From contig JAPSKH010000005.1 in NCBI GenBank assembly GCA_031177765.1, positions 38,576 through 102,575 of the forward strand: a stretch of DNA of 64,000 nt. Direction: 5' to 3'. The translations under genes were made by a program, and so were the position numbers. Under the pieces are notes generated by a model that made no database searches, was not told the DNA's origin, and saw nothing but the letters and a program-made list of their open reading frames with translations. Origin of the DNA: Microbacterium sp. GTDB lineage: Bacteria; Actinomycetota; Actinomycetes; Actinomycetales; Microbacteriaceae. Positions 37,540 to 64,000 of the stretch are shown here, one piece after another. The stretch's first letter is position 1. Every line of letters begins with the position of its first letter.

Positions 37540-37544
37540 CAGTG

Positions 37545-41440: not shown

Positions 41441-41490
41441 CAGGTCCGAACCGAAGCGCGCCCTCCGGCGCGCCGGAATGAAAGGCGCCC

Positions 41491-42321: not shown

Positions 42322-42346
42322 CGTCGGGGCCGCGACGCGGCCGGAG

Positions 42347-43210: not shown

Positions 43211-43340
43211 GAGACCTCCTCCGCGCCTGCCGGCTTGTTCCAGGATAGGCCCGCGCCATCGCACCGGGCCCATCCGCGACCGTCGGGCACGTGTGACCGC
43301 TCGCCCCGAGAGCCGGAAGTCCGCTCGGTAGGATTGCACG

Positions 43341-44033
43341 GTGAACGCACCACGCCTTGCCGCCGTCCTGTGGGATATGGACGGCACCCTCGTCGACACC
43401 GAACCGTACTGGATGGCTGCGGAGACACCGCTGGTCGAGAGGTTCGGCGGCACGTGGTCGCACGAGCAGGCGCTGAGCCTGGTGGGACTGGCGCTGGAGG
43501 ACTCGGCGCGGATCTTCCAGGCCGCCGGGGTGCGCATGAGCGTCGACGACATCATCGATCATCTGACCGACGAGGTCATGCACCGGCTGTCGACGACGGG
43601 TGTGCCGTTCCGCCCCGGAGCACGCGAGCTGCTCGCGGGCCTGCGCGCCGCGGGCATCAAGACCGGCCTCGTCACGATGTCCATGCGTCGGATGGCCCAG
43701 TCAGTGGTCGATCTGATCGACTTCGACGCCTTCGACGTCATCGTCGCCGGCGACGACGCCACGCGTCCGAAGCCCTTCCCCGACCCGTACCTGCAGGCCT
43801 GTGAGGCGCTGGGGGTCACGCCGGAGGAGACGGTGGCGATCGAGGACTCGCCGAACGGGCTGCGCTCCGCTGTCGCCTCGGGCGCATCGTCGATCGGGGT
43901 CCCGCTGATGGTGTCGCTGGCCGGCGCCGGTGCGCACGCCGTATGGCCGACGCTCGAGGGTCGCACCGTGGAGGATGTCATCGCCTTCCACGCCGCGCAT
44001 CGCGCCGGCCTCCACCGTGAGGTCGTGCGATGA
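43341..44033 (+). CDS. HAD superfamily hydrolase (beta-phosphoglucomutase-like)
   Basis: AVLWDMDGTLVDTEPYWMAAETPL, KPFPDPYLQACEALGV, AIEDSPNGLRSAVASGA. Confidence 0.92.
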   Translation: MNAPRLAAVLWDMDGTLVDTEPYWMAAETPLVERFGGTWSHEQALSLVGLALEDSARIFQAAGVRMSVDDIIDHLTDEVMHRLSTTGVPFRPGARELLAGLRAAGIKTGLVTMSMRRMAQSVVDLIDFDAFDVIVAGDDATRPKPFPDPYLQACEALGVTPEETVAIEDSPNGLRSAVASGASSIGVPLMVSLAGAGAHAVWPTLEGRTVEDVIAFHAAHRAGLHREVVR

Positions 44034-45037: not shown

Positions 45038-45046
45038 ACTGATCCG

Positions 45047-46009: not shown

Positions 46010-46054
46010 GCGGGGATCCGCGGCGGCGTGCAGACGGCGCTCTAGGATAGGCGG

Positions 46055-47050
46055 GTGCCTGCCAACCCGTCCGCGAAGATTCCGCCCGAGGAGCGGCTCG
46101 TCAATCTCGTCGTCGCGCTGATCGCGACCGATCAGGGGCTGACGAAGGACACCATCCTGACCTCGGTCGCCGGGTACCGGGAGCAGAGCGCGTCGGGCGC
46201 GTCGAAGGACGCCCTCGAGAAGATGTTCGAGCGCGACAAGGAGAGTCTGCGCGGGCTCGGTGTGCCGATCGAGACGATCGGCGACTTCGCCGATCCCGAC
46301 GATCTGCGCGAGGCGCGATACCGGGTGCCGAGCGCGGAGTACGAGCTCCCCGACGACATCGAGTTCACGCCCGCCGAGCTGGCGCTGCTGAACCTCGCAG
46401 GAGGCGTGTGGAGCGAGAGCTCCATGTCGGACGACGCACGCAGCGGCCTGCGCAAGATCCGCGCCCTCGGCGACCTCGTCGACGAGCCGATCATCGGGTT
46501 CTCGCCCCGGCTCAGCCTGCACGACCCCGCCTTCTCGCCGCTGCAGCAGGCGATCGAGCAGAGCCGCGTCGTCACGTTCCCGTACCTGAAGCCGGGTGAG
46601 GACCGGCCGCGCACCCGGCGGCTGCAGCCGCTGGCGCTCGTGGAGTACGAAGGTCGCTGGCACGTCTTCGGGATCGACCTCGACATCGGCGCCGACCGCA
46701 CCTTCCTTCTCGCCCGCATCGTCGGGCCCGTGACCGTCACCCGCCACACCTTCGACCCGGCGCTGCGCGACGGGGCGGGGGAGCGGGCACTGTCAGGACT
46801 GGAAGCGGTGGCCGCGCGCAACACCGCGCTGCTCGAGGTCAACCCCGGGACGGAGGCCGCGCTCCGCCTCGCGCGACGTGCCCGTCCGGCCGAGCAGGGG
46901 ATACACGTGTCGTACGTGGACGCGCACATCTTCGCCGACGAACTGGCCTCGTACGGCCCGGAGGTCCGGGTCGTCTCCCCGGCGGACCTGCGCGACCGCG
47001 TCATCGAGCGCCTCGCGGCCACCCGCGACCTGCACCGGAGCGAACCATGA
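46055..47050 (+). CDS. pafB: WYL-domain transcriptional regulator PafB
   Basis: PAEERLVNLVVALIATDQGLTKDTIL-type winged HTH then WYL domain; followed by pafC with ATGA overlap. Confidence 0.9.
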   Translation: MPANPSAKIPPEERLVNLVVALIATDQGLTKDTILTSVAGYREQSASGASKDALEKMFERDKESLRGLGVPIETIGDFADPDDLREARYRVPSAEYELPDDIEFTPAELALLNLAGGVWSESSMSDDARSGLRKIRALGDLVDEPIIGFSPRLSLHDPAFSPLQQAIEQSRVVTFPYLKPGEDRPRTRRLQPLALVEYEGRWHVFGIDLDIGADRTFLLARIVGPVTVTRHTFDPALRDGAGERALSGLEAVAARNTALLEVNPGTEAALRLARRARPAEQGIHVSYVDAHIFADELASYGPEVRVVSPADLRDRVIERLAATRDLHRSEP

Positions 47051-48009
47051 CCGCCCGCCGCCCCCTCGTCGCGACCGACCGCGCCGCCCTCATGCTCCAG
47101 CTCGTGCCGTACCTCATCGGCAAGGGCGAGGTGTCGATTGCGGAGGCGGCCGACGAGTTCGACGTCACACCCGAGCAGATGCGGGCCATGGTCGAGAAGC
47201 TCACCGTGATCGGGCTCCCGGGGGACCGCGGCTACTGGCAGATGGCGAACGACCTGTTCGACATCGACTGGGACCTCCTGGACGAGCAGGACCTCATCGT
47301 CATCACCAATGCCGTCGGCCTGGAGCGGGCGCCCAAGCTCACCGCGCGCGAAGCCGCCGCCCTGCTGGCGGGCCTCCAGATGGCGCGCTCGATCCCCGGC
47401 GTCGGCGACACCGAGCTGTATGCCGGACTGCTCGCCAAGCTCGCGCGGGGCGCGTCGAGCACGCCCGCCGAGGTGATCCTCGCGCCCGAGCCGGTCGACG
47501 CCGTCCGCGACCGCGTGGCAGCGGCGGTGCGCCGCGGCGTCGCCGTCTCGTTCACCTACAAGGCGCCGGATGCCGCACCCACGACCCGCACGGTCGACCC
47601 GGTGAAGGTCCACATCGCCAGCGGCCAGTGGTACCTGCAAGGCTGGTGCCACCTGCGCGAGGCGATGCGGACGTTCCACCTGGACCGGGTGAGCGAGCTC
47701 GAGCTCACCGACATCCCCATCACCCACGCCGGCGAGCCGGAGCCCGGCTGGTTCGAGCCGTCCGACGCCGATGTGGTGGCCCGCGTCCGCTTCCCCGAGG
47801 CGGTCGCCCCGCTGTTGGGCGACTACCTCGACCGCGCCGAGCTCGAGACGCACGACGGGATGACGATCGCGACGATGCGCGTCGCCGACGAGCTGAGCCT
47901 GCGCCGACTGGCCGCCCGGCGCGGCGGCACCGTCGAGGTGCTCGAACCCGCGGGCGCCCGCCGTGCGGCGTTCGAATGGGCGGAAGCCGGTCTGGCGCAA
48001 TACCGCTGA
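47047..48009 (+). CDS. pafC: WYL-domain transcriptional regulator PafC
   Basis: LMLQLVPYLIGKGEVSIAEAADEFDVTPEQMRAMVEKLTVIGLPGDRGYW; WYL region SGQWYLQGWCHLREAMRTFHLDRV. Confidence 0.9.
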   Translation: MTARRPLVATDRAALMLQLVPYLIGKGEVSIAEAADEFDVTPEQMRAMVEKLTVIGLPGDRGYWQMANDLFDIDWDLLDEQDLIVITNAVGLERAPKLTAREAAALLAGLQMARSIPGVGDTELYAGLLAKLARGASSTPAEVILAPEPVDAVRDRVAAAVRRGVAVSFTYKAPDAAPTTRTVDPVKVHIASGQWYLQGWCHLREAMRTFHLDRVSELELTDIPITHAGEPEPGWFEPSDADVVARVRFPEAVAPLLGDYLDRAELETHDGMTIATMRVADELSLRRLAARRGGTVEVLEPAGARRAAFEWAEAGLAQYR

Positions 48010-48083
48010 CACCGGCGCGGCGGGTCCGACGCCGTGGTTAGACTGGAGTGACTTTCCGCTGACGCGACACGACGGAGCATCTC

Positions 48084-48326
48084 ATGTTCGGCAATCTGAC
48101 TGGCTGGCACCTGCTGATCGTGCTCGTGGTGATCCTTCTGCTGTTCGGGGCGGCCAAGCTCCCCGCACTGGCCAAGAGCATGGGCCAGTCCGCCCGTGTG
48201 TTCAAGGGCGAGATGAAGGCCATGAAGGAGGAGGACGCAGCGAGCACCACCGCGCCCGACACCACCTCGAGCACGGCATCCACGACGCCGAACACCAGCG
48301 ACGGCACTCCCGACCGCAAGCCCTAG
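48084..48326 (+). CDS. tatA: Sec-independent protein translocase subunit TatA
   Basis: MFGNLTGWHLLIVLVVILLLFGAAKLPALAKSMGQSARVFKGEMK. Confidence 0.96.
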   Translation: MFGNLTGWHLLIVLVVILLLFGAAKLPALAKSMGQSARVFKGEMKAMKEEDAASTTAPDTTSSTASTTPNTSDGTPDRKP

Positions 48327-48329
48327 CGC

Positions 48330-49151
48330 ATGGTCGCGACAGCCGGTTCCGCGCCCGTGAACGGGCCGGAGGCGCCGAAGCGCGACAAGCGCATGTCGCT
48401 GGGGCAGCATCTTCTGGAGCTGCGCAAGCGGCTGATCATCGCCGCGATCGCGCTGATTCTCGGCATGGTGGTGGCCTTCCTCATCACCGACCCGATCATC
48501 CACTGGATCACCGGTCCGATCCGCGAGATCGCCGAACGTCGAGGCGACGACTTCGCCAAGCTCAACTTCGGCACCGTCACCTCCGCCTTCGACCTGCGGA
48601 TGAGGATCGCCTTCTCCATCGGCATCTTCCTGTCGGCTCCCGCATGGCTGTGGCAGATCTGGGCGTTCATCATGCCCGGACTGACGCGCAAGGAGGTCCG
48701 GTACACCGTCGGATTCGTCGCGGCGGCCGTGCCGCTGTTCTTCGCCGGATGCTACGTGGGCGTCCTGATCGTTCCGCACGTGATCGAGCTGATGTGGGGG
48801 TTCACGCCGGAAGGCGGTGTCAACTTCTACAACGCCGCCGAGTACTACGACTTCGTGTTCAAGCTCATGATCGTGATCGGCGTCGCGTTCGTGCTGCCGG
48901 TGTTCCTCGTGGCGCTGAACCTGGCGGGCGTCGTCTCGGGGAGAGCGATCCTCCGGGGCTGGCGGGTCGCCGTCCTGGTCGCGACGGCCTTCGCCGCCCT
49001 CGCCACCCCGGCCGCCGACGTCGTGAGCATGCTCATGCTGGCCGGCATGCTCGTCGTGCTGTTCTTCGCCGCCGCGGGCCTGTCGCTCCTGTTCGACCGC
49101 CGCAGAGCCAAGCGCGACGCCACGCTGCTGCCTCCCGGGGCCGGCTCATGA
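48330..49151 (+). CDS. tatC: Sec-independent protein translocase subunit TatC
   Basis: MSLGQHLLELRKRLIIAAIALILGM, FLSAPAWLWQIWAFIMPGLTRKE. Confidence 0.97.
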   Translation: MVATAGSAPVNGPEAPKRDKRMSLGQHLLELRKRLIIAAIALILGMVVAFLITDPIIHWITGPIREIAERRGDDFAKLNFGTVTSAFDLRMRIAFSIGIFLSAPAWLWQIWAFIMPGLTRKEVRYTVGFVAAAVPLFFAGCYVGVLIVPHVIELMWGFTPEGGVNFYNAAEYYDFVFKLMIVIGVAFVLPVFLVALNLAGVVSGRAILRGWRVAVLVATAFAALATPAADVVSMLMLAGMLVVLFFAAAGLSLLFDRRRAKRDATLLPPGAGS

Positions 49152-51646
49152 GCGAGCCCGGGCCAGCGGAGCGCTATGCGCGTGCGCGCGCGGCCGCGCA
49201 GCTGGACCGGAGCCACCCGATCACGGCGGAATTCGCCGAGTCCCAGCGGTTCTCGCTCGACCCGTTCCAGCTGGAGGGCTGTCGCGCCCTCGAGGAGGGT
49301 AGGAGCGTGCTGGTCGCAGCGCCCACGGGCGCAGGCAAGACCATCGTCGGCGAGTTCGCGGTGCACCTGGCGATGCGGGAACCGGGCGACAAGGCGTTCT
49401 ACACCACGCCGATGAAGGCGCTGTCGAACCAGAAGTTCCGTGAGCTGCAGGACGTCTACGGTCCCGACGACGTGGGCCTGCTGACCGGCGACACCAACAT
49501 CAACGGCGGCGCCCGTGTCGTGGTGATGACCACCGAGGTGCTCCGCAACATGCTCTACGCCGACTCGCCGGCGCTGCGAGGCCTCCGGTACGTCGTGATG
49601 GACGAGGTCCACTACCTCGCCGATCGCTTCCGCGGTGCGGTGTGGGAGGAGGTCATCATCCACCTCCCTCCGAGCGTGCGACTGGTGTCGCTGTCTGCGA
49701 CCGTCTCCAACGCCGAGGAGTTCGGCGACTGGCTCGACACCGTCCGCGGCGACACCGAGGTCATCGTGTCCGAGACCCGGCCCGTCCCGCTCGAGCAGCA
49801 TGTCCTCGTGCGCGGCGACCTGCTGCCGCTCTTCGACGACCGCGCCGGCGTGGCCACGGCGAAGGTGAACCAGGAGCTCCTGCGTATCCGGTCGCTCCGA
49901 GGACCGACCTACGAGAACAACCGCCGCGCGCAGAGCCTGAACAGCGCCCGTCACGCGGGGTACGAGGCATCCCGGCGACGCCCCAAGAGGGGCGAGAGGC
50001 GTCCGGTCCGCGCCGCGAACGTCCAGCGCATCGAGCGCCTGGACCGTCCGGACGTGGTGGAGCTCCTCGGCCGATCCAACCTCCTCCCGGCGATCTTCTT
50101 CATCTTCAGCCGCGCCGGCTGCGACGCCGCCGTCAAGCAGGTGCGGCGCTCGGGCGTGCGCCTGACCGATCAGGACGAGCGTCGTGAGATCCGCGAGATC
50201 GTCGAGGAGCGCACCCGCACGCTGCTCGAGGAGGACCTCGCGGTGCTGGGGTACTGGGAGTGGCGGGACAACCTCGAGCGAGGCATCGCCTCTCACCACG
50301 CCGGCCTCCTCCCGGCGTTCAAGGAGGTCGTCGAGGAGCTGTTCCAGCGCAAGCTGGTCAAGGTCGTCTTCGCGACCGAGACACTCGCGCTCGGCATCAA
50401 CATGCCCGCGCGCACGGTCGTGCTGGAGAAGCTCGAGAAGTTCAACGGCGAGGCGCGCGTGGCCATCACCTCGGGGGAGTACACGCAGCTCACCGGGCGC
50501 GCCGGTCGCCGCGGCATCGACGTGGAGGGCCACGCCGTCATCCAGTGGACCGAGGGCCTGGACCCTCAGGCGGTGGCGGCGCTGGCGTCACGGCGCACCT
50601 ACCCGCTGAACTCGAGCTTCCGTCCCACCTACAACATGGCCGTCAACCTCATCGACCAGTTCGGCCGGTCGCGGGCCCGCGAGATCCTGGAGTCCTCGTT
50701 CGCGCAGTTCCAGGCGGACCGGTCGGTCGTCGGCCTCGCCCGCGAGGTGCGCGAGAAGGAGGACTCGCTCGCCGGCTACGAGAAGGCGATGACCTGCGAC
50801 CGCGGCGACTTCACGGAGTACTCGGCCATCCGGCGCGAGCTCAGCGACCTCGAGAAGCTCAACCGCAAGGACGCCGGAGCGTCCCGCCGCACACGCGACG
50901 AGCGGCTCGATCGGATCGCCGACCTGCGCACGCGCATGCAGCGTCACGCGTGCCATCGCTGCCCCGACCGTGAGAACCATGCACGCTGGGCGGAGCGGTA
51001 CTGGAAGCTGAGGCGGAGCATCGACAAGGTGCGCGGTCAGATCCAGGCGCGCACCGGCACGGTGGCCCGTGTGTTCGACCGCGTCGTCGACGTCCTCTCC
51101 GAACTCGACTACGTCCGGATCGACGACGACGGGGTCACCGCGCTCACGCCCGCTGGGCGCACGATGAAGCGCATCTACGGTGAGCGCGACCTGCTCGTCG
51201 CCGAATCGCTCCGTCGTGGTCTGTGGGAGAAGCTCGATGCGCCCTCGCTGGCCGCGCTGGCGTGCTGTCTGGTCTACGAACCGCGCCGCGATGAAGCCGG
51301 CGTCGGGGAGCGCGGCCTGCCGCGTGGACCCTTCCGTCCGGCCTTCGAGGCCACGTCGGATCTCTGGCAGGCTCTGGATGACCGCGAACGCGAACATCAC
51401 CTGCCCGGGTCGGAGCCGATCGCTCTGGGACTGGCCACGGCGATGCACACGTGGGCGCGCGGCGGGATGCTCGACCGGGTGCTGCTGGAAGCGGACATGG
51501 CCGCCGGCGACTTCGTGCGGTGGGCGAAGCAGACCATCGACCTGCTCGACCAGCTGTCGCTGGTCGCGGATGCGTCGGTGGCCTCGACAGCGCGCAGGGC
51601 GCTGGAAGCCGTGCGCCGCGGGATCGTCGCATACTCGGGCGTGTGA
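49148..51646 (+). CDS. helY: DEAD/DEAH-box RNA helicase HelY (Mtr4/Ski2-like)
   Basis: APTGAGKTIVGEFAVHLAM, MDEVHYLADRFRGAVWEEVIIHLP, SLSATVSNAEEFGDWL, TETLALGINMPARTVVLEKLEKFNGE. Confidence 0.95.
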   Translation: MSEPGPAERYARARAAAQLDRSHPITAEFAESQRFSLDPFQLEGCRALEEGRSVLVAAPTGAGKTIVGEFAVHLAMREPGDKAFYTTPMKALSNQKFRELQDVYGPDDVGLLTGDTNINGGARVVVMTTEVLRNMLYADSPALRGLRYVVMDEVHYLADRFRGAVWEEVIIHLPPSVRLVSLSATVSNAEEFGDWLDTVRGDTEVIVSETRPVPLEQHVLVRGDLLPLFDDRAGVATAKVNQELLRIRSLRGPTYENNRRAQSLNSARHAGYEASRRRPKRGERRPVRAANVQRIERLDRPDVVELLGRSNLLPAIFFIFSRAGCDAAVKQVRRSGVRLTDQDERREIREIVEERTRTLLEEDLAVLGYWEWRDNLERGIASHHAGLLPAFKEVVEELFQRKLVKVVFATETLALGINMPARTVVLEKLEKFNGEARVAITSGEYTQLTGRAGRRGIDVEGHAVIQWTEGLDPQAVAALASRRTYPLNSSFRPTYNMAVNLIDQFGRSRAREILESSFAQFQADRSVVGLAREVREKEDSLAGYEKAMTCDRGDFTEYSAIRRELSDLEKLNRKDAGASRRTRDERLDRIADLRTRMQRHACHRCPDRENHARWAERYWKLRRSIDKVRGQIQARTGTVARVFDRVVDVLSELDYVRIDDDGVTALTPAGRTMKRIYGERDLLVAESLRRGLWEKLDAPSLAALACCLVYEPRRDEAGVGERGLPRGPFRPAFEATSDLWQALDDREREHHLPGSEPIALGLATAMHTWARGGMLDRVLLEADMAAGDFVRWAKQTIDLLDQLSLVADASVASTARRALEAVRRGIVAYSGV

Positions 51647-51693
51647 GAACGTCTCAAGCCGTCGTTCAGACACCGCCATCTAGGGTGGTGCTC

Positions 51694-53259
51694 GTGTCCT
51701 CCGCCGCCCGCGCGCGTCCGCTCCTCCCGCTGTGGGCAGCGGTGCCGGCATCGGCGATCGCGGGCGTCCTGCTCGACGTCGCGTTCCCGGCCGTGGGCTG
51801 GTGGCCGATGGCATTCGTCTCGGTCGCGGTGGCACTGGTCTGCCTGATCGGCCGGCGCTTCGGCGGCGCCTTCCTCGCGGGCCTGGCGTACGGTCTGGCG
51901 TTCTACCTCATGAACGTCGACTTCACGGCCGCCTGGGTCGGACCGGTGCCCTGGCTGGCACTGGCCGGTTTCGAGTCCCTGTTCGTCGCTGGTGGCGCCG
52001 CGCTCATCGCTCTGGCGTACCGCTGGGCGCCCCTCATCGTCCGCCGCCCGGGTGGGCGGATCATCGCGACGGCCCTCCTCGTCGCCGGACTGTGGACGGC
52101 CCGTGAGGCGGTGACCGGCGGCTTCCCCTACGGGGGCTTCCCATGGGGTCGCGTGGGCACCAGCCAGGTGAGCGGGCCGTTCGCGGAAGTCGTGTCGTGG
52201 ACCGGGACCTCGGGTCTGACGTTCCTCGTCGTCGGCATCGCCGCCGCCGGGATCGAGCTGGTGCGCGGGGCCGGCCGATCGCGGCGCCGGATGAGATGGG
52301 CGCCCGCCGCGGCGCTGCTTGCGGCGGCGGCCGCCCTGGCGGTCCTTCCCGCGTGGGGCACCACGCCGACCGGCAGCATCCGGGTCGCCGGCATCCAGGG
52401 GAACGGGCCCGCGGGGTACTTCGACACGCGACAGGCCGGCGACATCCTGAAGTCCCAGCTGGATGCGACCCGTCCCGTCTTCGACGCCTCGGATATCGAT
52501 GTGGTGCTCTGGCCGGAAGGGAGCGTCGACCTCGACCCCCGCACGTCGCCCACCGCGGCCGCCGCGCTGGACCTGATCACCCGCGAGCTGGATGCGCCGC
52601 TGCTCGCCAACCGCATCGAGCAGCGCGGGGAGGCGTACTTCAACACCTCGTTCCTCTGGAACGACGGCATCGAGCAGACGTATGACAAGCGCAACCCCGT
52701 GCCGTTCGGCGAGTACGTGCCCGACCGCGCGTTCTACGCCGCACTGGCGCCCGACCTCATCGGGATGATCGGGCGGGACTACACGCCGGGGAGCAACTCG
52801 CCGGTGTTCGACGTGAACGGCGTGCGAGCCGGCCTGGCCATCTGCTTCGATGTCATCTACGACGCTCTGGTCTGGGAAGGCGCACACGCGGGCGCGGAGG
52901 TGTACCTCTTCCAGACCAACAACGCCGACTTCCGCGGCACCGACGAGAACCTCCAGCAGCTGGCCGTCGCACGACTGCGCGCGATCGAGACGGGCCGGGC
53001 CGTGGTCAACCTGTCGACGGTGGGGACGAGCCAGGTGATCGGCCCGAACGGGGCCACCATCCAGGGGCTCCCGGCCGACGAGCCGGGTCACCTGCTGACG
53101 GATGTGCCGCTCCGGGCAGGACTCACCCCCGCCGTGGTGCTCGGCGCCGGCATCGGCGCCGTCCTGTCGTGGGGGAGTGTGGCCGCGCTCGCCGCGGCGG
53201 GCGTTGTCGTGCGCATGAGGGCTTCCCGCGCCGGGAACGCGGAAACGCCGGCCCCGTAG
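51694..53259 (+). CDS. lnt: Apolipoprotein N-acyltransferase
   Basis: TM-rich N-terminus, nitrilase domain VLWPEGSVDLDP, NAVPFGEYVPDR-like NPVPFGEYVPDRAFY, GLAICFDVIYDAL. Confidence 0.92.
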   Translation: MSSAARARPLLPLWAAVPASAIAGVLLDVAFPAVGWWPMAFVSVAVALVCLIGRRFGGAFLAGLAYGLAFYLMNVDFTAAWVGPVPWLALAGFESLFVAGGAALIALAYRWAPLIVRRPGGRIIATALLVAGLWTAREAVTGGFPYGGFPWGRVGTSQVSGPFAEVVSWTGTSGLTFLVVGIAAAGIELVRGAGRSRRRMRWAPAAALLAAAAALAVLPAWGTTPTGSIRVAGIQGNGPAGYFDTRQAGDILKSQLDATRPVFDASDIDVVLWPEGSVDLDPRTSPTAAAALDLITRELDAPLLANRIEQRGEAYFNTSFLWNDGIEQTYDKRNPVPFGEYVPDRAFYAALAPDLIGMIGRDYTPGSNSPVFDVNGVRAGLAICFDVIYDALVWEGAHAGAEVYLFQTNNADFRGTDENLQQLAVARLRAIETGRAVVNLSTVGTSQVIGPNGATIQGLPADEPGHLLTDVPLRAGLTPAVVLGAGIGAVLSWGSVAALAAAGVVVRMRASRAGNAETPAP

Positions 53260-53268
53260 GGCCGGCGT
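53245..53268. terminator. Bidirectional hairpin overlapping the lnt stop codon
   Basis: ACGCCGGCCC-CGTA-GGGCCGGCGT, perfect 10-bp stem; TAG stop at 53257-53259 sits at loop/stem junction; convergent with rbpA. Confidence 0.75.
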
Positions 53269-53286
53269 CGCATCGTCGGGGTTCGG

Positions 53287-53670
53287 TCAGGCGCTCATCT
53301 TGTCGACGGACATGTCCTCGCCGGCGCCGCGGCGGGCGCGGACGTAGGCGAGCCGCTCCTCGAGGAGCTCCTCGAGCTCGGGGATGGTCCGCCGCTCCAG
53401 CAGCATGTCCCAGTGGCTGCGAGGCGTCTTGTCGCCAGAGTGGTCGACCGTCTCGGTGCCCTCGCCGACGCGCCGCAGCGCCTCGCCGCCGCACGTGCGG
53501 CACTCCCACGACGGGGGCACCTCGGCGTCGGCCGCGAAGGTCAAGGTCGTGTCACGGCCGCATGCCGTACACGTATAGGTGTGCTGTGCGCGCTCATGGA
53601 ACACGACGCCCTCTTCGCTCTGTAGGCTCTGGGCGCCGAGTCGGATGCCGCGGAGACTCCGGTCTGCCAT
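53287..53670 (-). CDS. rbpA: RNA polymerase-binding protein RbpA
   Basis: MADRSLRGIRLGAQSLQSEEGVVFHERAQHTYTCTACGRDTTLTFAADAEVPPSWECRTCGGEA; HWDMLLERRTIPELEELLEERL. Confidence 0.97.
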   Translation of the reverse strand: MADRSLRGIRLGAQSLQSEEGVVFHERAQHTYTCTACGRDTTLTFAADAEVPPSWECRTCGGEALRRVGEGTETVDHSGDKTPRSHWDMLLERRTIPELEELLEERLAYVRARRGAGEDMSVDKMSA

Positions 53671-53806
53671 TGTGTGGTCCTCTCGTCGCTGTACAGGTAT
53701 AACCAAGCGACCTGTGCGGATCATCCGAGCGGCCCCCGCTGGACCCGCATTCACAGTGGATGCTCAGCCCCGGCGAGGGCGGCGGCGATACGGCGGCGCG
53801 GACCTG

Positions 53807-54604
53807 TCAGCCGAGCGCCTCGAGGGCTACGTCGGCGCGGTCGGTGACGATGCCGTCGACGCCCATCCCGACGAGGCGGCGCATGTCATCCACGTCGTTC
53901 ACAGTCCACACATGCACCTCGACGTCGTGCCGGTGCGCCGCTTCGATGAGACGCGGCGTGACGATGCGCAGCCGGCCGCGACGCTCAGGCACCTGCAGCG
54001 CATCCAGACCCGCCAGCGAGCGGCCGATCGCGCGGCGCGAGCGCGACGCGACGGCGGCGAGCACGCGCGCGACCGCGCCCCGACCGGCCGAGGTGGCCGG
54101 CAGCGACGCCGGAGCATCGCCGGCGGGCGCGTGCAGGACCTCGCGGGCGGCGGCCAGCGCGGTGCGACGACGCGCATCCGAGAAGCTCGTCACGAGCACC
54201 CGGTCGGCATGGGGAGCGACCAAGCGGCCCACGGCCTCGGCGGCGGCGTCGACCTTGACGTCGAGGTTGAACCGGAGCGTCGGGAAGGCCTCCAGCGCCT
54301 GGGCCAGCGCGATGAGGCCGCCCCGTTCCGCCATCAGCTGTTCGAGCTCTGCGGCCGCGACGCGGGCGACTTTCCGGGGGTCTCCCGTGACGCGTGACAG
54401 ATCCTCGTCGTGGAACAGCACGACCACGCCGTCCGCGGTCACATGACAGTCGGTTTCGACGTACGCGACCCCGGCCGCGTGGGCTGCCGCGACCGCCGCG
54501 AAGGAGTTCTCGACGACACCGTCTCTGGCGGCATCCGCCGTGACGAGTCCTCGATGGGCCAGGACGCGAGGCGTCGCGACGCCCCGGAACCACGGGTGGC
54601 TCAT
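53807..54604 (-). CDS. Glycerophosphodiester phosphodiesterase
   Basis: VLAHRGLVTADAARDGVVENSFAAVAAAHAAGVAYVETDCHVTADGVVVLFHDEDLSRVTG; VHVWTVNDVDDMRRLVGMGVDGIVTD. Confidence 0.94.
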   Translation of the reverse strand: MSHPWFRGVATPRVLAHRGLVTADAARDGVVENSFAAVAAAHAAGVAYVETDCHVTADGVVVLFHDEDLSRVTGDPRKVARVAAAELEQLMAERGGLIALAQALEAFPTLRFNLDVKVDAAAEAVGRLVAPHADRVLVTSFSDARRRTALAAAREVLHAPAGDAPASLPATSAGRGAVARVLAAVASRSRRAIGRSLAGLDALQVPERRGRLRIVTPRLIEAAHRHDVEVHVWTVNDVDDMRRLVGMGVDGIVTDRADVALEALG

Positions 54605-54618
54605 ACCTCTGCTCAGGC

Positions 54619-55710
54619 TCAGCGGACGATATCGCCCGACGACTCTCCCGGTGCCGCGCCGACACCACCCGGTGTCGCGTCCATCGCCTGCGTCGCGATC
54701 TCGTCGGCTGCCGAGGCGGCCTCGTGCGCGGCGGCCACCGCCTCGTCCGCCGCCGAGCTGGACCGCGGACGCGCACGGCCGGGCGTCGACGCGGGACCTG
54801 CGGACGTGGGCGCCGCGCGGCCACCGAAGGCGTCGCCGATGCCCTTGAGCGCCTCGGTGAGCTCGCTTGGGATGATCCACAGCTTGCTGGACGGGCTTTC
54901 GGAGATCTTGGGCAGTGTCTGCAGGTACTGGTACGCCAGAAGCTTGTCGTCCGGTCCGCCGGCGTGGATGGCGTTGAACACCATCTCGATGGCCTCCGCC
55001 TCGCCCTGCGCGCGCAGGACCGCGGCCTGCTTGTCTCCTTCGGCGCGAAGGATCTCGGCCTGCCGGCGCCCCTCGGCCTCGAGGATCTGCGACTGCTTCG
55101 ACCCCTCGGCGGTGAGGATCGCCGCGCGCCGATCGCGCTCGGCGCGCATCTGCTTCTCCATCGAGTCCTGGATCGACAGCGGCGGATCGATGGCCTTGAG
55201 CTCCACACGCGACACCCGCAGGCCCCACTTGCCCGTCGCCTCGTCGAGCACGACGCGCAGCTGCCCGTTGATGTTGTCGCGACTGGTGAGCGCCTCCTCC
55301 AGGTTCAGCCCGCCCACCACGTTGCGCAGCGTCGTGGTGGTGAGCTGCTCGACCGCGCTCAGGTAGTTCGCGATCTCATAGGTCGCAGCCCGGGCGTCGG
55401 TGACCTGGAAGTAGACCACCGTGTCGATCGAGACCACGAGGTTGTCCTCGGTGATCACCGGCTGCGGGGGGAACGACACCACCTGTTCCCGCATGTCGAC
55501 GAGGGGACGCAGGCGGTCGATGAACGGCACGAGCAGGTTCAGGCCCGGCTGCAGGGTGCGCTGATAGCGGCCCAGGCGCTCCACGACGCCGGCGTACGCC
55601 TGGGGGATGATGCGGATCGAACGGAAGATCACGACGATCACGAAGATCGCCAGGACGACCAGCAGGACGATCACGAAGATCTGGCCGATGAAGGCGCCGA
55701 CGTCAACCAT
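54619..55710 (-). CDS. SPFH/Band 7 (stomatin-like) protein
   Basis: RIIPQAYAGVVERLGRYQRTLQPGLNLLVPFIDRLRPLVDMREQVVSFPPQPVITEDN. Confidence 0.95.
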   Translation of the reverse strand: MVDVGAFIGQIFVIVLLVVLAIFVIVVIFRSIRIIPQAYAGVVERLGRYQRTLQPGLNLLVPFIDRLRPLVDMREQVVSFPPQPVITEDNLVVSIDTVVYFQVTDARAATYEIANYLSAVEQLTTTTLRNVVGGLNLEEALTSRDNINGQLRVVLDEATGKWGLRVSRVELKAIDPPLSIQDSMEKQMRAERDRRAAILTAEGSKQSQILEAEGRRQAEILRAEGDKQAAVLRAQGEAEAIEMVFNAIHAGGPDDKLLAYQYLQTLPKISESPSSKLWIIPSELTEALKGIGDAFGGRAAPTSAGPASTPGRARPRSSSAADEAVAAAHEAASAADEIATQAMDATPGGVGAAPGESSGDIVR

Positions 55711-56188
55711 CGTGGGGGTTCCTTTCAGGGGGGTCGGTGGCGACCTCGACGGTCGCTCCGAGGACGGCGACCACGTTGACCCGGGCGCCGACCTCGAGTG
55801 TCGGGGGAGCGGTGGGAGCGAGCTTGGCGGTCCAGGTCTCGCCGTTGTCGAGCTTGACGGAGCCGTAGCCGTCGACGAACGGCGCGAGCACACGCGCACC
55901 CATGCCGTAGAGCGCATCGACGTTCGTGCGAGCCGGCTCTGCGCCGCGGTGCAGCGTGCGAAGCAGCAGCGGCCTGATCGTGAAGAGCAGGATGGCCGAC
56001 AGCGCGGCGGCGGCGCCGATCTGCAGCCACCACGGGCCGCCCAGGAGATTCACGCCCAGGCCGCCGATCAGCGACCCCGCGGCCAGCATCAGGAACGTGA
56101 ACTCCAGCGTGAGCAGCTCGACGATGACGAACAGGAGTGCGAGCACCAGCCAGAGGATCCACATGTACTGCGTGAGATCTGGCAGCAT
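55703..56188 (-). CDS. NfeD family membrane protein
   Basis: TM segments and C-terminal OB-like domain GMGARVLAPFVDGYGSVKLDNGETWTAKL; overlaps stomatin start. Confidence 0.9.
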   Translation of the reverse strand: MLPDLTQYMWILWLVLALLFVIVELLTLEFTFLMLAAGSLIGGLGVNLLGGPWWLQIGAAAALSAILLFTIRPLLLRTLHRGAEPARTNVDALYGMGARVLAPFVDGYGSVKLDNGETWTAKLAPTAPPTLEVGARVNVVAVLGATVEVATDPPERNPHDG

Positions 56189-56307
56189 CGCCTTCCCTTC
56201 CCGAGTCCCTTGATGGAACCCTACACGCGCCTGCGCGCGGCGCGTTGATAGGGTCGACACGGCCCGCCCACCCGCGATCCGGGCCCACATCCACAGGAGC
56301 GTCATCC

Positions 56308-57072
56308 ATGACTCAGACCCTCGAGGCCGGCTCTCTGCGCGGCAAGACCGCGCTCGTCACGGGTTCGTCCCGCGGCATCGGCGCCGACACCGTCCGCTAT
56401 CTCGCCGAAGCGGGAGCCGATGTCGTCGTGAACTATCGCAACAAGGCTCCGCGGGCGGAGAAGCTCGCGGCAGGCCTGCGGGAGCTCGGCGTCGAGGTGC
56501 TCGTCGTCGGCGCCGACCTCACCGACGCCGCATCCGTGCAGGCGATGTTCGACGAGGTGGAGCGGACCTTCGGCGGCCTCGACATCCTGGTGCTCAACGC
56601 CTCCGGCGGCATGGAGTCCGGCGTGGCCGAGGACTACGCGCTGCAGCTGAACCGCGATGCGCAGGTGCGCGTCCTCGAGACGGCGCTGCCGCTGCTGCGC
56701 GAGGGCTCGCGCGTGGTGTTCGTCACCAGCCACCAGGCCCACTTCATCCGCACGACGCCGACCATGCCCGAGTACGAGCCGGTGGCCCTGTCCAAGCGAG
56801 CCGGCGAGGACGCCCTGCGCGAGCGCATCCCCGCGCTCACCGAGCGGGGGATCGAGTTCGTGGTCGTCTCCGGCGACATGATCGAGGGGACGATCACCGC
56901 GACGCTGCTCGAGCGCGCCAACCCGGGCGCGATCGCAACCCGGCGGGAGTCGGCCGGCAAGCTCTACAACGTGTCGGAGTTCGCCGCCGAGGTCGCCGCC
57001 GCAGCCGTGGAGCCTGTGCCGGCCGATCACACACGACTCGTGGGCGACGTCTCGTCGTTCGCGGCGGAGTGA
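56308..57072 (+). CDS. SDR family oxidoreductase
   Basis: TALVTGSSRGIGADTVRYLAEAGADVVVNYRNK. Confidence 0.92.
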   Translation: MTQTLEAGSLRGKTALVTGSSRGIGADTVRYLAEAGADVVVNYRNKAPRAEKLAAGLRELGVEVLVVGADLTDAASVQAMFDEVERTFGGLDILVLNASGGMESGVAEDYALQLNRDAQVRVLETALPLLREGSRVVFVTSHQAHFIRTTPTMPEYEPVALSKRAGEDALRERIPALTERGIEFVVVSGDMIEGTITATLLERANPGAIATRRESAGKLYNVSEFAAEVAAAAVEPVPADHTRLVGDVSSFAAE

Positions 57073-57075
57073 CCG

Positions 57076-59064
57076 ATGCGCGCGGAAGACATCACCACCC
57101 TCATCGCCGTCAGCCGTCCGACGATCGCGCCGGACGCGTCGTTCGCGGTCTTCGCCACCTCGCGCCCCGATATCGAGGCCAACCGCGCGGTCGGGCAGCT
57201 CTGGCGCGTCGAGCTTCCTGACGGATCGCCACGCCGGCTCACCCGCGGCACGGCCGATGCCGCGCCGCGCCTGTCGCCGGACGGCACACGCATCGCTTTC
57301 CTCCGCGGGGATGCGAAGGGCAAGCCGCAGGTGCACGTCGTCGCCGCCGCCGGAGGCGAGCCGGTGCAGGCGACCGACGCGCCGCTGGGTGTCGAGGACT
57401 TCGCATGGTCGCCCGAGGGTGGCCGCCTGGCATATCTCGCCCGCGTCCCGGAGAAGGGGCGATACGGCAGCGTCGAGGGCCTGGATGCCTCCGCGGAGGC
57501 GCCGCGACACATCACCGGCATCCGGTGGCACGCCAACGGGCTGGGGTACGTCTCCGATCGCCCGGCTCACGTGTTCATCGTCGACGCGCCGTCACCCGAG
57601 TCGGAGCCGTTCTACGAGCCGGCGCCGGCCGTGCGCGCCGAAGGGGAGGACGCGCCCAAGAAGAAGCTCGTCCACGCCGCCGCTGAGCAGCTGACGGACG
57701 GCACCGCGTCGCACGGCGGCGTCGTCTTCACCGCCGACGGCGCCGAGGTCCTCACCGTGCCCGACGAGATCGAGCCGGATCGCCGGGACCTGCGCTCGCG
57801 CCTGATCGCCGTGTCGGTCGACGGCTCCGGCCAGCGCGAGGTCCTCGCTCGCGAGGCCGGGCTGACCGTCTTCGGCGCCGAGGTCGCCGGCGACGGCGCC
57901 ATCGCGCTGCTCGCACACGAGGTGGGGGACGACGGGGTCGACTTCATCGCACCGGGCGTCGGCCTCTGGCTGCTCGAGGCGGACGGGCCGCGCCGGCTGA
58001 CGGACGCCGAGTCGATCGACCTGGGCGAGGTGGGCAGCCACATCACGGCCGTCGGCGACGACTTCCTGGTGCAGGATCGCACTCGCGGACGGGTCCGGCT
58101 CGTGCGGGTCGCACGCGACGGAGCGCTGACGGAGGTGCTCGGCGGCGATCTCGAGGTGGCCGGCCACGCCGCCGCGGGGGAGCGGGTGGTCGCTTCGGTC
58201 GCGCGACCGGACTCGTACGGGGAGCTCGTGCTCCTCGAGGGCCCGGACCAGAAGACGCTGACGGCCTTCGGGGCGGCTGCCGCCGCGTCGGGCATCGCGC
58301 TGCCGCGCGAGCTGACCGTCACCGGCCGTGACGGCTACCCCGTGCACGGCTGGGTCGCCGCGCCGGACGGGGAGGGGCCCTTCCCCGTCATCCTGCAGAT
58401 CCACGGCGGACCGTATGCGGCGTACGGCGTGCACCTCTTCGACGAGACCCAGGTCCTCGTCGATGCCGGGTACGCCGTGGTGTACTGCAACCCTCGCGGC
58501 TCCGCCGGCTACGGCCGAGCCCACGGTCGCAGCATCCGGCAGGCGATGGGGACGGTGGACTTCGCCGACGTGATCGACTTCCTCGAGGGGGCCGTCGCCG
58601 ACGATGCCCGGCTCGACGGCGCACGCGTCGGCGTCATGGGCGGCTCGTACGGCGGATACCTCACCGCATGGGTGATCGCGCACGATCACCGCTTCGCCGG
58701 CGCCATCGTCGAGCGTGGCTTCCTCGACCCGGCGACGTTCCAGGGAACGAGCGACATCGGGACGTTCTTCGGCGACGAGTACGTCGGCGTCTCGGCGGAG
58801 GACATCGCCCGGCAGAGCCCCATGGCGGTCGCCGACCAGGTGAAGACGCCGACTCTGGTCCTGCACTCCGAGCTGGACTTCCGCTGCCCGCTCGAACAGG
58901 CCACCCGGTACTTCTCAGCCCTGAAGCGCAACGGGGTCGAGGCGGAGATGCTCATCTTCCCCGGTGAGAACCACGAGCTCACCCGATCGGGCCAGCCGCG
59001 TCACCGCGTGGAGCGCTTCGCCGCCGTGCTGGACTGGTGGAGTCGCACGCTGCCGGTCGACTGA
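57076..59064 (+). CDS. S9 family peptidase (prolyl oligopeptidase/acylaminoacyl peptidase-like)
   Basis: WD40-like beta propeller then PVILQIHGGPYAAYG, GVMGGSYGGYLTAWVIAHDHRF, LDFRCPLEQATRYFSAL. Confidence 0.94.
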   Translation: MRAEDITTLIAVSRPTIAPDASFAVFATSRPDIEANRAVGQLWRVELPDGSPRRLTRGTADAAPRLSPDGTRIAFLRGDAKGKPQVHVVAAAGGEPVQATDAPLGVEDFAWSPEGGRLAYLARVPEKGRYGSVEGLDASAEAPRHITGIRWHANGLGYVSDRPAHVFIVDAPSPESEPFYEPAPAVRAEGEDAPKKKLVHAAAEQLTDGTASHGGVVFTADGAEVLTVPDEIEPDRRDLRSRLIAVSVDGSGQREVLAREAGLTVFGAEVAGDGAIALLAHEVGDDGVDFIAPGVGLWLLEADGPRRLTDAESIDLGEVGSHITAVGDDFLVQDRTRGRVRLVRVARDGALTEVLGGDLEVAGHAAAGERVVASVARPDSYGELVLLEGPDQKTLTAFGAAAAASGIALPRELTVTGRDGYPVHGWVAAPDGEGPFPVILQIHGGPYAAYGVHLFDETQVLVDAGYAVVYCNPRGSAGYGRAHGRSIRQAMGTVDFADVIDFLEGAVADDARLDGARVGVMGGSYGGYLTAWVIAHDHRFAGAIVERGFLDPATFQGTSDIGTFFGDEYVGVSAEDIARQSPMAVADQVKTPTLVLHSELDFRCPLEQATRYFSALKRNGVEAEMLIFPGENHELTRSGQPRHRVERFAAVLDWWSRTLPVD

Positions 59065-59092
59065 CGCGCGAGGGTCGACTGACGCATGTGAG

Positions 59093-59122
59093 AGGGGGCA
59101 CCGGACGGATCCGGTGCCCCCT
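59093..59122. terminator. Intrinsic terminator between convergent S9 peptidase and DUF308 genes
   Basis: AGGGGGCACCGGA-CGGA-TCCGGTGCCCCCT, 13-bp stem. Confidence 0.85.
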
Positions 59123-59137
59123 TCACGTGGCCTGCGT

Positions 59138-59701
59138 TCAGATCGTCCGCGAGCCGAAGGTGAAGGCCCGCACGATGTTCATGACGCCGAGCACGAGCAG
59201 CGAGATGCCCAGCAGCCACCACAGCACCAGCGTGCCCCACACCGGAGCGAAGAGGATCACGATGCCGGCGACGATGCTGAGCACCGCGAAGACGACGGTC
59301 CAGGGTCTGGACCGTCCCGTCTCGAGCGTGGACAGCGAGACCACGCCTTCGATGATCCACATGATGCCCACGAGGACGCCGACGAAGAGCAGCAGCCAGT
59401 CGCGGGTCAGGGTGATGTTGAACAGCGCCACCACACCGGCGATGACGAAGAGGACGCCGAGCACGATGTGGCCGACGCGGGACCACCCGCCGCGCACCGT
59501 CGAGAAGATGCCGAGACCGGCGTAGACAAGGCCCGCGGCGATCGCGTAGATCGCGATGATGACGGTCACGAAGGACAGCGTCTTGCCCGGCCACAGCAGG
59601 ATGAGGACGCCCACGACGGCGGCGAGGACGCCGCCGATGCCGAGGGCGGTACGGAGCGCGTTGACGGCGGGCCTCCCGATGACGGGTTCGGTGGACATCA
59701 C
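59138..59701 (-). CDS. HdeD/DUF308 family membrane protein
   Basis: Repeated TM pairs; GVLVGIMWIIEGVVSLSTLETGRSRPWTVVFAVLSIVAGIVIL. Confidence 0.88.
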   Translation of the reverse strand: MMSTEPVIGRPAVNALRTALGIGGVLAAVVGVLILLWPGKTLSFVTVIIAIYAIAAGLVYAGLGIFSTVRGGWSRVGHIVLGVLFVIAGVVALFNITLTRDWLLLFVGVLVGIMWIIEGVVSLSTLETGRSRPWTVVFAVLSIVAGIVILFAPVWGTLVLWWLLGISLLVLGVMNIVRAFTFGSRTI

Positions 59702-59883
59702 GGTCCCTTCTGCATGTTCCCTGAGAAGACGCGGCTAAAGCTTAGACCGCGTCGGATCCCGTCATGTGATGCCTCGCCCGTCGCGGCGCCCCTCGCGTCA
59801 CGCGCGCCGAGCCGCTGCGGGCCGCCGCTGGGGCGGCCCAGTATGCCGGCGTCGTCGGCGGGATGCTGTTGCCGTACGCAAGA

Positions 59884-59897
59884 CACGATATATCGTG
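59884..59897. promoter_or_regulatory. Orphan 14-bp palindrome, operator-like
   Basis: CACGATATATCGTG perfect palindrome in a GC-rich intergenic region; no regulator gene adjacent. Confidence 0.5.
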
Positions 59898-59961
59898 ACT
59901 CCGCTGACGGAGGCGCCGCCAACGGGGGAGTGGCGCTCGCCTGCGCCGCTCCGCTGAGCGG

Positions 59962-60882
59962 TCAGCCCAGCAGCAGCGTGACGGCGAAGAGCACCGGGAT
60001 GCAGCCGACGGTGGTGAGGAAGACGGTGTCACGCGAGATCGTCTCGCCGACGTCGTAGCGCTGGGAGTAGTTGAAGACGTTCTGCGCCGTCGGCAGCGCG
60101 GCGAGCACCGTCACGATGAGAACGTCGTGCGGGTGCAAGCCGAACACGAACTCCGCGACCGCCCACGCCACGACCGGCATCGCCACGAGCTTCAGCACCG
60201 TCGCCAGCACGATGTCACGCCGGCGCCCGGAGGAGCCGAGCACCCGCTGGCCGTGCAGCGAGATCCCGTAGGCGATGAGGAGGATCGGCACGCACGCGTT
60301 CGCGATGAGCTGCGCCGGTTCCATGACGATGGGGGGCAGGTCGACGCCGAGCACCGACACGAGGGTGCCCAGCACGGAGCCGAGCACGATCGGGTTGCCG
60401 ACCACGCGTCCGACCGACTGCCACAACGACGACCGGCCCGCGGTGACGGCATCCAGGATCGCCATCGTGATCGGGGTGAACAGCAGCAGCTGCATCAGGA
60501 TGACGGGCGCGGGATAGGCGGCACTGCCCAGAAGGTACAGCGACAGGGGGATCCCGATGTTGTTGGAGTTGACCTGACCCGCGCTCAGCGCTCCGATGAC
60601 GATCTCGCCGAGGGGGCGTCTCCACACCAGACGGGCGATGAACGCGTACACGGCGATGACCGCCACCGCGGCGATCGCCGAGACGGGGAGCAGTGCCGAG
60701 AAGAGCGTCCGGACGTCGGCCTGCGCGAGCACGACGAACAGCAGGAACGGCGACAGGACGAAGAACGTGAGCCGAGCGAGCACCGGCCGGGCATGCGCGC
60801 CGAGCAGGTCGATGCGTCCGAGGATCCACCCCACGATGATGGCGACGCCCACCACGACGAACCCGGTGAGCGATTCCAGCAT
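59962..60882 (-). CDS. AEC family (auxin efflux carrier-like) transporter
   Basis: 306 aa, ten TM segments, GALSAGQVNSNNIGIPLSLYLLGSAAYPAPVILMQLLLFTPITMAILD. Confidence 0.92.
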   Translation of the reverse strand: MLESLTGFVVVGVAIIVGWILGRIDLLGAHARPVLARLTFFVLSPFLLFVVLAQADVRTLFSALLPVSAIAAVAVIAVYAFIARLVWRRPLGEIVIGALSAGQVNSNNIGIPLSLYLLGSAAYPAPVILMQLLLFTPITMAILDAVTAGRSSLWQSVGRVVGNPIVLGSVLGTLVSVLGVDLPPIVMEPAQLIANACVPILLIAYGISLHGQRVLGSSGRRRDIVLATVLKLVAMPVVAWAVAEFVFGLHPHDVLIVTVLAALPTAQNVFNYSQRYDVGETISRDTVFLTTVGCIPVLFAVTLLLG

Positions 60883-60986: not shown

Positions 60987-61448
60987 ATGAGTGTGAACAT
61001 GCCGCAGCCCCGGGACCGCGCGACGAGGAGGGCCGACGCGCTGACGAGACTGAGCGAGCCGGCGGTCGACGTCTGGGTGTCGACGGCGTCGCCCGCCGGG
61101 ACGCCGTATCTGGTCCCGCTGTCGCTGGCGTGGGTGACCGAGCGCGCCGTCATCGCCGTCGATGAATCGTCGCCGACGGCGACGAACCTGGCGTCGACGG
61201 GCAGGGCGCGGCTCGGGGTGGGTCCGACCAGAGACGTCGTCGTCATCGACGCCGTCGTCGAGCGCACCGTCGGGGTCGACGAGGATGAGACGCTCGGCCG
61301 AGCGTATGCCGGCCAGGCCGACTGGGACCCGCGAGGCCTCGCCGGCTACCAGTTCGTCGTCCTGCGACCGGACCGCATCCAGGCGTGGCGCGAGTCGAAC
61401 GAGCTCGGCGGGCGGCTGCTCATGCGGGACGGGCGCTGGCTCGCCTGA
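60987..61448 (+). CDS. Pyridoxamine 5'-phosphate oxidase / F420-dependent family protein
   Basis: VDVWVSTASPAGTPYLVPLSLAWVTERAVIAVDESSPTATNLASTGRARLGVG. Confidence 0.87.
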   Translation: MSVNMPQPRDRATRRADALTRLSEPAVDVWVSTASPAGTPYLVPLSLAWVTERAVIAVDESSPTATNLASTGRARLGVGPTRDVVVIDAVVERTVGVDEDETLGRAYAGQADWDPRGLAGYQFVVLRPDRIQAWRESNELGGRLLMRDGRWLA

Positions 61449-61456: not shown

Positions 61457-61484
61457 GCATCCGATAATCCACATTATGTCAACT
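61457..61484. other. dif: dif-like XerC/XerD recombination site (chromosome dimer resolution)
   Basis: GCATCCGATAA-TCCACA-TTATGTCAACT; ATAA-N6-TTAT symmetric core and XerD-type arm TTATGTCAACT (9/11 identical to E. coli TTATGTTAAAT); in an 87-bp convergent intergenic gap. Confidence 0.78.
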
Positions 61485-61535: not shown

Positions 61536-62126
61536 TCACCCGCGGCGGTGCGGTCCCACGCCGTCCGGGATGCCGGTGTGGACGTGCGGCACGTACACGA
61601 GCTTGAGCGTGCGGCCGTCGAGGACCTTCGAGTCGACGAGTTCCAGGTCGAACTCGGGCCCGTCGTGGAACAGCGACGCGTAGCCGGCGCGTCCGGTGAT
61701 CGCCGGAAACAGCATCACCTCGAGTCGGTCCACCAGGCCCGCCGCCAGCAGCGCCCGATTCAGCGAGATGCTGCCGTGCGAGCGCAGCGGCACGTCGCTC
61801 TCGCGCTTGAGCCGCTCCACCGCTGTGACGGCGTCCTCCCGGACGAGTGTCGAGTTCTGCCAGCCCAGCGGCTCCTCCAGCGTGCTCGAGAAGATGATCT
61901 TCGGCAGGGCGTTCAGGCTCTCGTAGTACGGCTCGTCGTACTCGCGCACGAACCGGCGGAACTCCCGGAAGGTGGTCGCGCCGAAGACCAGCGCCTGCGG
62001 CTGGGCGAACGTTTCCACGCGATCCCGGCGGAGCTCCGGCCCCTCCTTGCCCCAGTAGCCGGGCCACCCTCGCGCCGAGCCGTTGCCGTCGAGACTGCTG
62101 AAGAAGTCCACCGTGAACGTCGCCAT
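61536..62126 (-). CDS. Dihydrofolate reductase family protein (RibD C-terminal-like)
   Basis: FTVDFFSSLDGNGSARGWPGYWG, LPKIIFSSTLEEPLGWQNSTLV, LFPAITGRAGYASLF. Confidence 0.92.
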   Translation of the reverse strand: MATFTVDFFSSLDGNGSARGWPGYWGKEGPELRRDRVETFAQPQALVFGATTFREFRRFVREYDEPYYESLNALPKIIFSSTLEEPLGWQNSTLVREDAVTAVERLKRESDVPLRSHGSISLNRALLAAGLVDRLEVMLFPAITGRAGYASLFHDGPEFDLELVDSKVLDGRTLKLVYVPHVHTGIPDGVGPHRRG

Positions 62127-62200
62127 GACGCCACGGTAGCGATGTCCCCTGGGCGCGGTAAGGCGGAACCGCTCCCCCCTTGGTCGGTATCGTTTGGCGC

Positions 62201-62704
62201 GTGATCCCCCGTCGCACCCCTCGCCTCCGCTTCCGCGAGATGACGACGGCGGACCTGGACGACATGGCCCGGCTGCTAGGCGACCCGGACGTGATGCGCT
62301 TCTATCCCGCGCCGAAGACGCGGAACCAGGCGGCCGCCTGGATCGCGTGGAATCAGAGGAACTACGCCGACCACGGTCACGGTCTGTGGATCGTCGAGAC
62401 GCTCGAGGGCGACTTCGTCGGCGACTGCGGGTTGACGTGGCAGGACGTCGACGGCGTCAGCATGCTGGAAGTGGGCTATCACGTCTCCCCCGCGCGGCAG
62501 GGACGCGGCTTCGCCACCGAAGCGGCCGCCGCATGCCGTGACCTCGCCCGCGAGCGCCGCCTCGCCGACGAGCTCGTCGCGATCGTCCATCCCGACAACC
62601 GCGCGTCGGAGCGAGTGGCGGAGAAGCTCGGCATGCGGCGCCTCCACGACGGCGACCGCCGGGGTGACGGACCGCTGCGCAGGGTCCTCGGCATGCCGCT
62701 GTGA
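62201..62704 (+). CDS. GNAT family N-acetyltransferase
   Basis: RTPRLRFREMTTADLDDMARLLGDPDVMRFY, EVGYHVSPARQGRGFATEAAAACRDLA; GTG start at 62201. Confidence 0.93.
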   Translation: MIPRRTPRLRFREMTTADLDDMARLLGDPDVMRFYPAPKTRNQAAAWIAWNQRNYADHGHGLWIVETLEGDFVGDCGLTWQDVDGVSMLEVGYHVSPARQGRGFATEAAAACRDLARERRLADELVAIVHPDNRASERVAEKLGMRRLHDGDRRGDGPLRRVLGMPL

Positions 62705-62738
62705 CGGGCTCGGCGGGGACAGGAACTACGGTGGAAGG

Positions 62739-64000
62739 GTGGCGCGCCTGACCCGGACCCTCCTCGCAGGGCCGGGATTCCGGGCCTGGCTCGTGTGGTC
62801 GGTCGGCGTCGCCGCGTATGTGCTCGCGGTCGTCAACCGCTCGTCCCTGAGCGCCGTCGGTGTGGACGCCGCGGCCCGCTTCGATGCGGACGCCTCCACC
62901 CTGTCGCTCTTCGCGGTGGTGCAGCTCGCCGTGTACGGCGGCATGCAGATTCCGATCGGCGTGCTCCTGGATCGTTACGGCGCACGCCCGATCATGACGG
63001 TCGGCATGGTGCTCATGGCGGTCGGGCAGCTCGTCATGGCGCTCTCCCCCAGTGTCGGCGTGGCGATCGTCGCGCGCATGCTGCTGGGCGCCGGCGACGC
63101 CGCCGTGTTCCCCGGGGTCCTTCGCCTGGTCGCGACGTGGTTCCCGGCCCAGCGCGGACCGCTCATGGTTCAGCTGACCGGCATCATCGGGCAGTCCGGA
63201 CAGCTCGTCGCGCTCGTGCCGCTGGCGGCGCTGCTGCATGCGACGACCTGGACGATCACCTTCGGCAGCGTCGCCGGCCTCGGTGTGCTGTTCGCAGTGC
63301 TCGTCTTCCTCATCATCCGCAACCATCCACCCGACCGCGACGACGACGTGTCGGTCGACACCGACACCGGCGCGATCCGCGTCGTCACATCGACGGTCGA
63401 CACGGGTGCGGGCATCCGCGCAGCCTGGGCGCATCCGGGAACGCGGCTGGCCTTCTGGTCGCACTTCACGACGCCTTTCGCCGGGACCGCCTTCGTGCTG
63501 CTGTGGGGCATGCCGTTCCTCACCGCCGGCGAAGGGCTCTCCACGGCCGAGGCCGCAAGCGTCATGTCGGCGTACGTCGTGGTCGGCATGGCGCTGGGAC
63601 CGGTGATGGGCGAGCTCTCGCGACGCGTCCCCACGATGCGATCGCGCGCTCTCGTGCTGCCGACGGTCGCGGTTCAGCTGATCGCGTGGCTCGCGGTGAT
63701 CCTCTACCCCGGTCCAGCTCCGCTGTGGCTGCTGCTCATCCTCGCGTTCGCCCTCGGAACGGGCGGGCCGGCATCGATGATCGCGTTCGACCACGCCCGG
63801 ACCCACAACCCGACGCATCGCCTGAGCACCGCGACCGGCGTGACGAACGCGGGCGGCTTTCTCGCCGCGCTCCTTGCGATCTTCCTCATCGGCCTCGCGT
63901 TGGACCTGCAGGGCGCGGGAACGCCGGAGACGTATTCGCTGGATGCCTTCCGCGTGGCGTTCCTCGCGCAGGTGCCGCTGTGGCTGCTGGGTGCGAGCTT
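62739..64000 (+). CDS. MFS transporter (3' truncated by window edge)
   Basis: GTG start at 62739; no in-frame stop to window end; VARLTRTLLAGPGFRAWLVWSVGVAAYVLAVVNRSSLSAVGVDAAARFDADASTLSLFAVVQLAVYGGMQIPIGVLLDRYGARPIMT; absent from the supplied ORF track because it has no stop. Confidence 0.9.
   Translation, partial: MARLTRTLLAGPGFRAWLVWSVGVAAYVLAVVNRSSLSAVGVDAAARFDADASTLSLFAVVQLAVYGGMQIPIGVLLDRYGARPIMTVGMVLMAVGQLVMALSPSVGVAIVARMLLGAGDAAVFPGVLRLVATWFPAQRGPLMVQLTGIIGQSGQLVALVPLAALLHATTWTITFGSVAGLGVLFAVLVFLIIRNHPPDRDDDVSVDTDTGAIRVVTSTVDTGAGIRAAWAHPGTRLAFWSHFTTPFAGTAFVLLWGMPFLTAGEGLSTAEAASVMSAYVVVGMALGPVMGELSRRVPTMRSRALVLPTVAVQLIAWLAVILYPGPAPLWLLLILAFALGTGGPASMIAFDHARTHNPTHRLSTATGVTNAGGFLAALLAIFLIGLALDLQGAGTPETYSLDAFRVAFLAQVPLWLLGAS

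Follow-up and report, generated by a model that had tools for sequence, protein, structure and literature searches.

The 28-mer GCATCCGATAATCCACATTATGTCAACT at positions 61457-61484 of the window (the whole 64-kb stretch of DNA that we analyzed, positions 38576-102575 of contig C3) is almost certainly the native dif of a Microbacterium-like actinobacterium's chromosome and marks its replication terminus. With the terminus now fixed, the order and strand of the window's genes can be interpreted with respect to replication. As a feature, dif is standard; this kind of site has already been predicted in other actinobacteria, and here one more species is added.

Anatomy, copy number, and conservation of the site

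The original prediction placed this 28-mer in an 87-bp gap between convergent PPOx-like and DHFR-like genes, with an 11-6-11 layout, an ATAA-N6-TTAT core, and an XerD arm matching 9 of 11 positions of the E. coli arm. The coordinates match exactly, the layout and core can be seen in the 28-mer, and the arm count was confirmed for TTATGTCAACT (Table 1). The second base of the central region is C here and G in 30 listed congeners. An imperfect 15-nt inverted repeat (61450-61498, 80% complementary) closely brackets the site; judged by eye, it shows no conservation in the table of homologous sites.

Table 1. Features at and around the site, in window coordinates (motif positions on contig C3 are given minus 38575)
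Feature	Position	Strand	Remarks
Predicted dif site, 28 bp	61457..61484	+	Unique in genome; core kept in 289/298 congeners; at GGGGGAG polarity switch
Predicted XerC half-site GCATCCGATAA	61457..61467	+	11-6-11 layout; homologous sites strongly favor CCGATAA and vary in the outer bases
Central region TCCACA	61468..61473	+	Between the arms
Predicted XerD half-site TTATGTCAACT	61474..61484	+	TTATGTCA invariant in sites fetched with it; 9/11 of E. coli arm
PNPOx/F420-PPOx-like gene	60987..61448	+	Stop borders dif gap; syntenic dif neighbor in several congeners
RibD_C (DHFR-like) gene	61536..62126	-	Convergent neighbor; no synteny to dif in relatives checked
Mem_trans (auxin efflux carrier type) transporter gene	59962..60882	-	Also near dif in several Microbacterium loci
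18 GGGGGAG, pointing to dif	490..59930	+	Window portion of own-contig count
First bases of + strand GGGGGAG	490, 6670, 11740, 15344, 24121, 26028, 27283, 35588, 36244	+
First bases of + strand GGGGGAG, remainder	39625, 40723, 44479, 46777, 50473, 53171, 55803, 58176, 59924	+
3 GGGGGAG, pointing back to dif	62172..63050	-	Lowest bases 62172, 62485, 63044

The claim that no second copy is present held up. Allowing up to 3 mismatches, the 28-mer was the sole match in the window, with 0 expected from shuffles, and the single match in the assembly (2.2 Mb, 74 contigs, 72.6% complete). A looser search of the assembly with the core gave one extra match, which had 3 mismatches over the 15 specified bases and lacked dif-like arms. 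From base composition (A and T 0.15 each, G and C 0.35 each), about 1e-6 copies of the core GATAATNNNCATTATGTCAA are expected by chance in this genome. As the assembly is in 74 contigs and 72.6% complete, the absent ~27% of the genome might hold another copy, though this is unlikely.

Conservation in related genomes, which the original prediction implied, was found both for the core and for the neighboring gene. With up to 2 mismatches, GATAATNNNCATTATGTCAA was present in 289 of 298 same-genus genomes, nearly always once (18 genomes had two matches), and in 271 of the 275 of good quality; a reversed GATAATNNNCATTATGTCAA control gave 0 matches across all 298. The genus is probably Microbacterium, to judge from named Microbacterium loci that have the adjacent transporter gene in common with this genome. 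Five congeners (G038, G028, G198, G012, and G160) have the PPOx gene no more than ~0.9 kb from dif, the first of them in an alignment that runs unbroken through dif; in G049 and G102 the gene is ~3 kb from dif. The best match to the DHFR-like gene in G160 and G049 is elsewhere on the chromosome, away from dif.

An exact core scan of public genomes returned at least 119 further stretches, almost all from Actinobacteria. These were picked by the core pattern, so invariance within the pattern is no evidence and only the bases that it leaves free are informative. Among the matches listed, these free positions behave as in a dif site, with a strong preference for CC ahead of GATAA, for A at position 15, and for T at position 28. 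The outer bases of the XerC arm vary among the homologous sites listed.

Actinobacterial-type dif cores also occurred in five contigs labeled Burkholderia, Flavobacteriales, Proteobacteria, Aquificota, and Oscillospiraceae (L079, L012, L090, L092, and L117). Their arms are unlike actinobacterial arms, and GGGGGAG is absent from the vicinity of four of the five. The contigs may be mislabeled, or the sites may be genuine dif of other phyla. The sequence GATAATNNNCATTATGTCA was present in 79 viral contigs (L260-L338), some of which could be phages that integrate at dif and others host flanks.

Terminus position and GGGGGAG polarity

We placed the terminus using homologous sites in 17 single-contig relatives, as the 74-contig draft itself gives no true skew curve, and dnaA was not found in this draft (72.6% complete). 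Measured from dnaA, the site is 0.39-0.50 of a chromosome away in 11 congeners and 0.47-0.50 away in six other Actinobacteria (Pseudarthrobacter, Mycobacterium aurum, Phytohabitans, Kibdelosporangium, Prescottella, and Corynebacterium senegalense), with a median of 0.49 across all 17. Under uniform placement, the chance of all 17 lying so far from dnaA is ~1e-11. These distances agree with the original prediction of a native dif near the terminus. As for the accompanying expectation about skew, no better dif was found elsewhere in the assembly and GGGGGAG inverts here, but plain GC skew was uninformative. It is too weak as a terminus marker in the window and in a sampled complete congener, where it is still positive past dif.

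To find a polar motif, we compared heptamer counts across 40 samples from one complete congener, G163; a single very polar word emerged, GGGGGAG, which we tested afterwards on our own contig. In the congener, GGGGGAG is very polar (263 versus 21), and its polarity inverts between the samples flanking dif. On our contig there are 27 forward and 0 reverse copies before dif and 0 forward and 3 reverse copies after it, so that all 30 converge on the site; the left side alone (27 versus 0) has a binomial P of 1.5e-8. The far side holds only 3 motifs because the right end of contig C3 is 2.5 kb from dif. Gene-strand bias can be ruled out as the cause of the polarity, as the 27 left-side copies have the same orientation in plus-strand genes (16), minus-strand genes (8), and intergenic DNA (3).

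The same polarity surrounds dif sites in other genomes. GGGGGAG points towards dif 457 times and away 7 times around 119 sites elsewhere, among the matches listed, where it is the most polar heptamer; around 30 congener sites the counts are 72 and 0. Pooled over these 149 homologous sites (529 towards, 7 away), forward copies end and reverse copies start within ~200 bp of dif. Heptamers with the six G and the single A in another order show far less polarity around dif, so the polarity of GGGGGAG is more than a simple bias towards G. Two known motifs, GGGNAGGG (the KOPS of E. coli) and GAGAAGGG (the SRS of B. subtilis), were also tried as the polar motif and were dropped, being only weakly polar around dif. 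At chromosome scale, samples of Prescottella gave 20 forward and 1 reverse GGGGGAG between position 1.15 Mb and the last sample ahead of dif, and 0 forward and 26 reverse from dif onward as far as the last sample ahead of dnaA; the sample just past dnaA was discordant (0 forward, 3 reverse). In this 70% GC genus, the heptamer count pins dif more sharply than GC skew does.

On balance, we favor GGGGGAG as the FtsK-orienting motif (KOPS) of Actinomycetota generally, a functional counterpart of GGGNAGGG recognized by the FtsK gamma domain. Our literature search found no paper tying GGGGGAG to FtsK.

Alternative readings and second sites in congeners

The 28-mer might not be a native dif at all but an attachment-site copy from a XerCD-exploiting plasmid or integrative element, a reading encouraged by the second dif-like sites that some congeners carry on small contigs. 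We consider this very improbable, as the 28-mer is single copy in this assembly, core-type neighbor genes are kept beside dif in relatives, the polarity of the flanking GGGGGAG inverts at the site, and the second sites of the congeners differ in the central region. Even less credible is a coincidental likeness to dif, in a transcription terminator or a random AT-rich stretch of the convergent gap. The position between convergent gene ends and the bracketing inverted repeat would suit this reading, but the number of copies expected by chance is negligible (given above), a consensus scan of the 87-bp gap found neither a terminator nor a promoter, and the core is kept in nearly all congeners, at the terminus. 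The native chromosomal dif site is the reading that we carry forward.

The second dif-like sites in congeners, nine in the set that we compared (L345-L353: G209:C2, G242:C2, G268:C2, G051:C6, G273:C8, G080:C6, G053:C71, G058:C11, and G154:C1), have altered 6-bp central regions and are mostly on small contigs, possibly plasmids; G209:C2, for example, is a 34-kb contig in a two-contig genome. The genes around them are mixed, and a tyrosine recombinase adjoins the L348 site. They may be plasmid dimer-resolution sites or elements that use Xer. Around L346 (G242:C2:392661-412660), GGGGGAG is absent from the left 10 kb, whereas the right 10 kb holds 13 copies that all point to the site, as though a terminus-like region had foreign DNA joined to it.

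Proposed recombination and comparison with known systems

The genome encodes XerD (341 bits, above the TIGR02225 cut-off), XerC (296 bits to its best match, TIGR02224, whose cut-off of 335 bits it does not reach), and an FtsK that has a gamma domain. From our reading of the open reading frames, xerD is neighbored by parA, scpA, and pyrG and xerC by dprA, rpsB, and tsf, which are the usual contexts of these genes.

By analogy, we infer XerCD binding, recombination, and a role for GGGGGAG at this site. Following the E. coli model, XerC and XerD would each occupy one 11-bp half-site. FtsK at the septum, steered by polar motifs pointing to dif (GGGGGAG being the candidate), would pair the dif copies of a dimeric chromosome, and its gamma domain would activate XerD. 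Strand exchange by XerCD in the 6-bp central region would then turn the dimer into two monomers.

Compared with dif of E. coli, the site has the same layout, an ATAA-N6-TTATGT core, and the similar XerD arm noted above, whereas the XerC arm is alike at just 6 of 11 positions. In E. coli, GGGNAGGG is the polar motif that points to dif; here it is GGGGGAG.

The likeness to actinobacterial dif sites is closer. Kono et al. (2011) assigned a predicted dif to each of the actinobacterial genomes they covered (66 of 66) and remarked that not one had experimental confirmation (PMC3025954), and an actinobacterial dif consensus is credited to Hendrickson and Lawrence (2007), as cited in PMC2830990. The dif that Kono et al. 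(PMC3025954) give for Frankia alni is identical to the 28-mer at 22 of 28 positions. Like actinobacterial dif sites, ours is 28 bp long with an 11-6-11 layout and a GATAAT-N3-CATTATGTCAA core, one per chromosome and opposite the origin; the differences are limited to the outer bases of the XerC arm, the central region, and position 27.

The GGGGGAG motif itself is not new, as it has been published for Corynebacterium. Genome papers on that genus located dif with the help of architecture-imparting sequences, namely the octamers G(A/T/C)GGGGGA and (T/C)GGGGGAG (PMC2830990, PMC3350403). These octamers share the GGGGGA(G) core and a strong leading-strand bias with the motif described here, whereas our GGGGGAG counts come from a Microbacterium-like genome and from the surroundings of dif in about 140 Actinobacteria.
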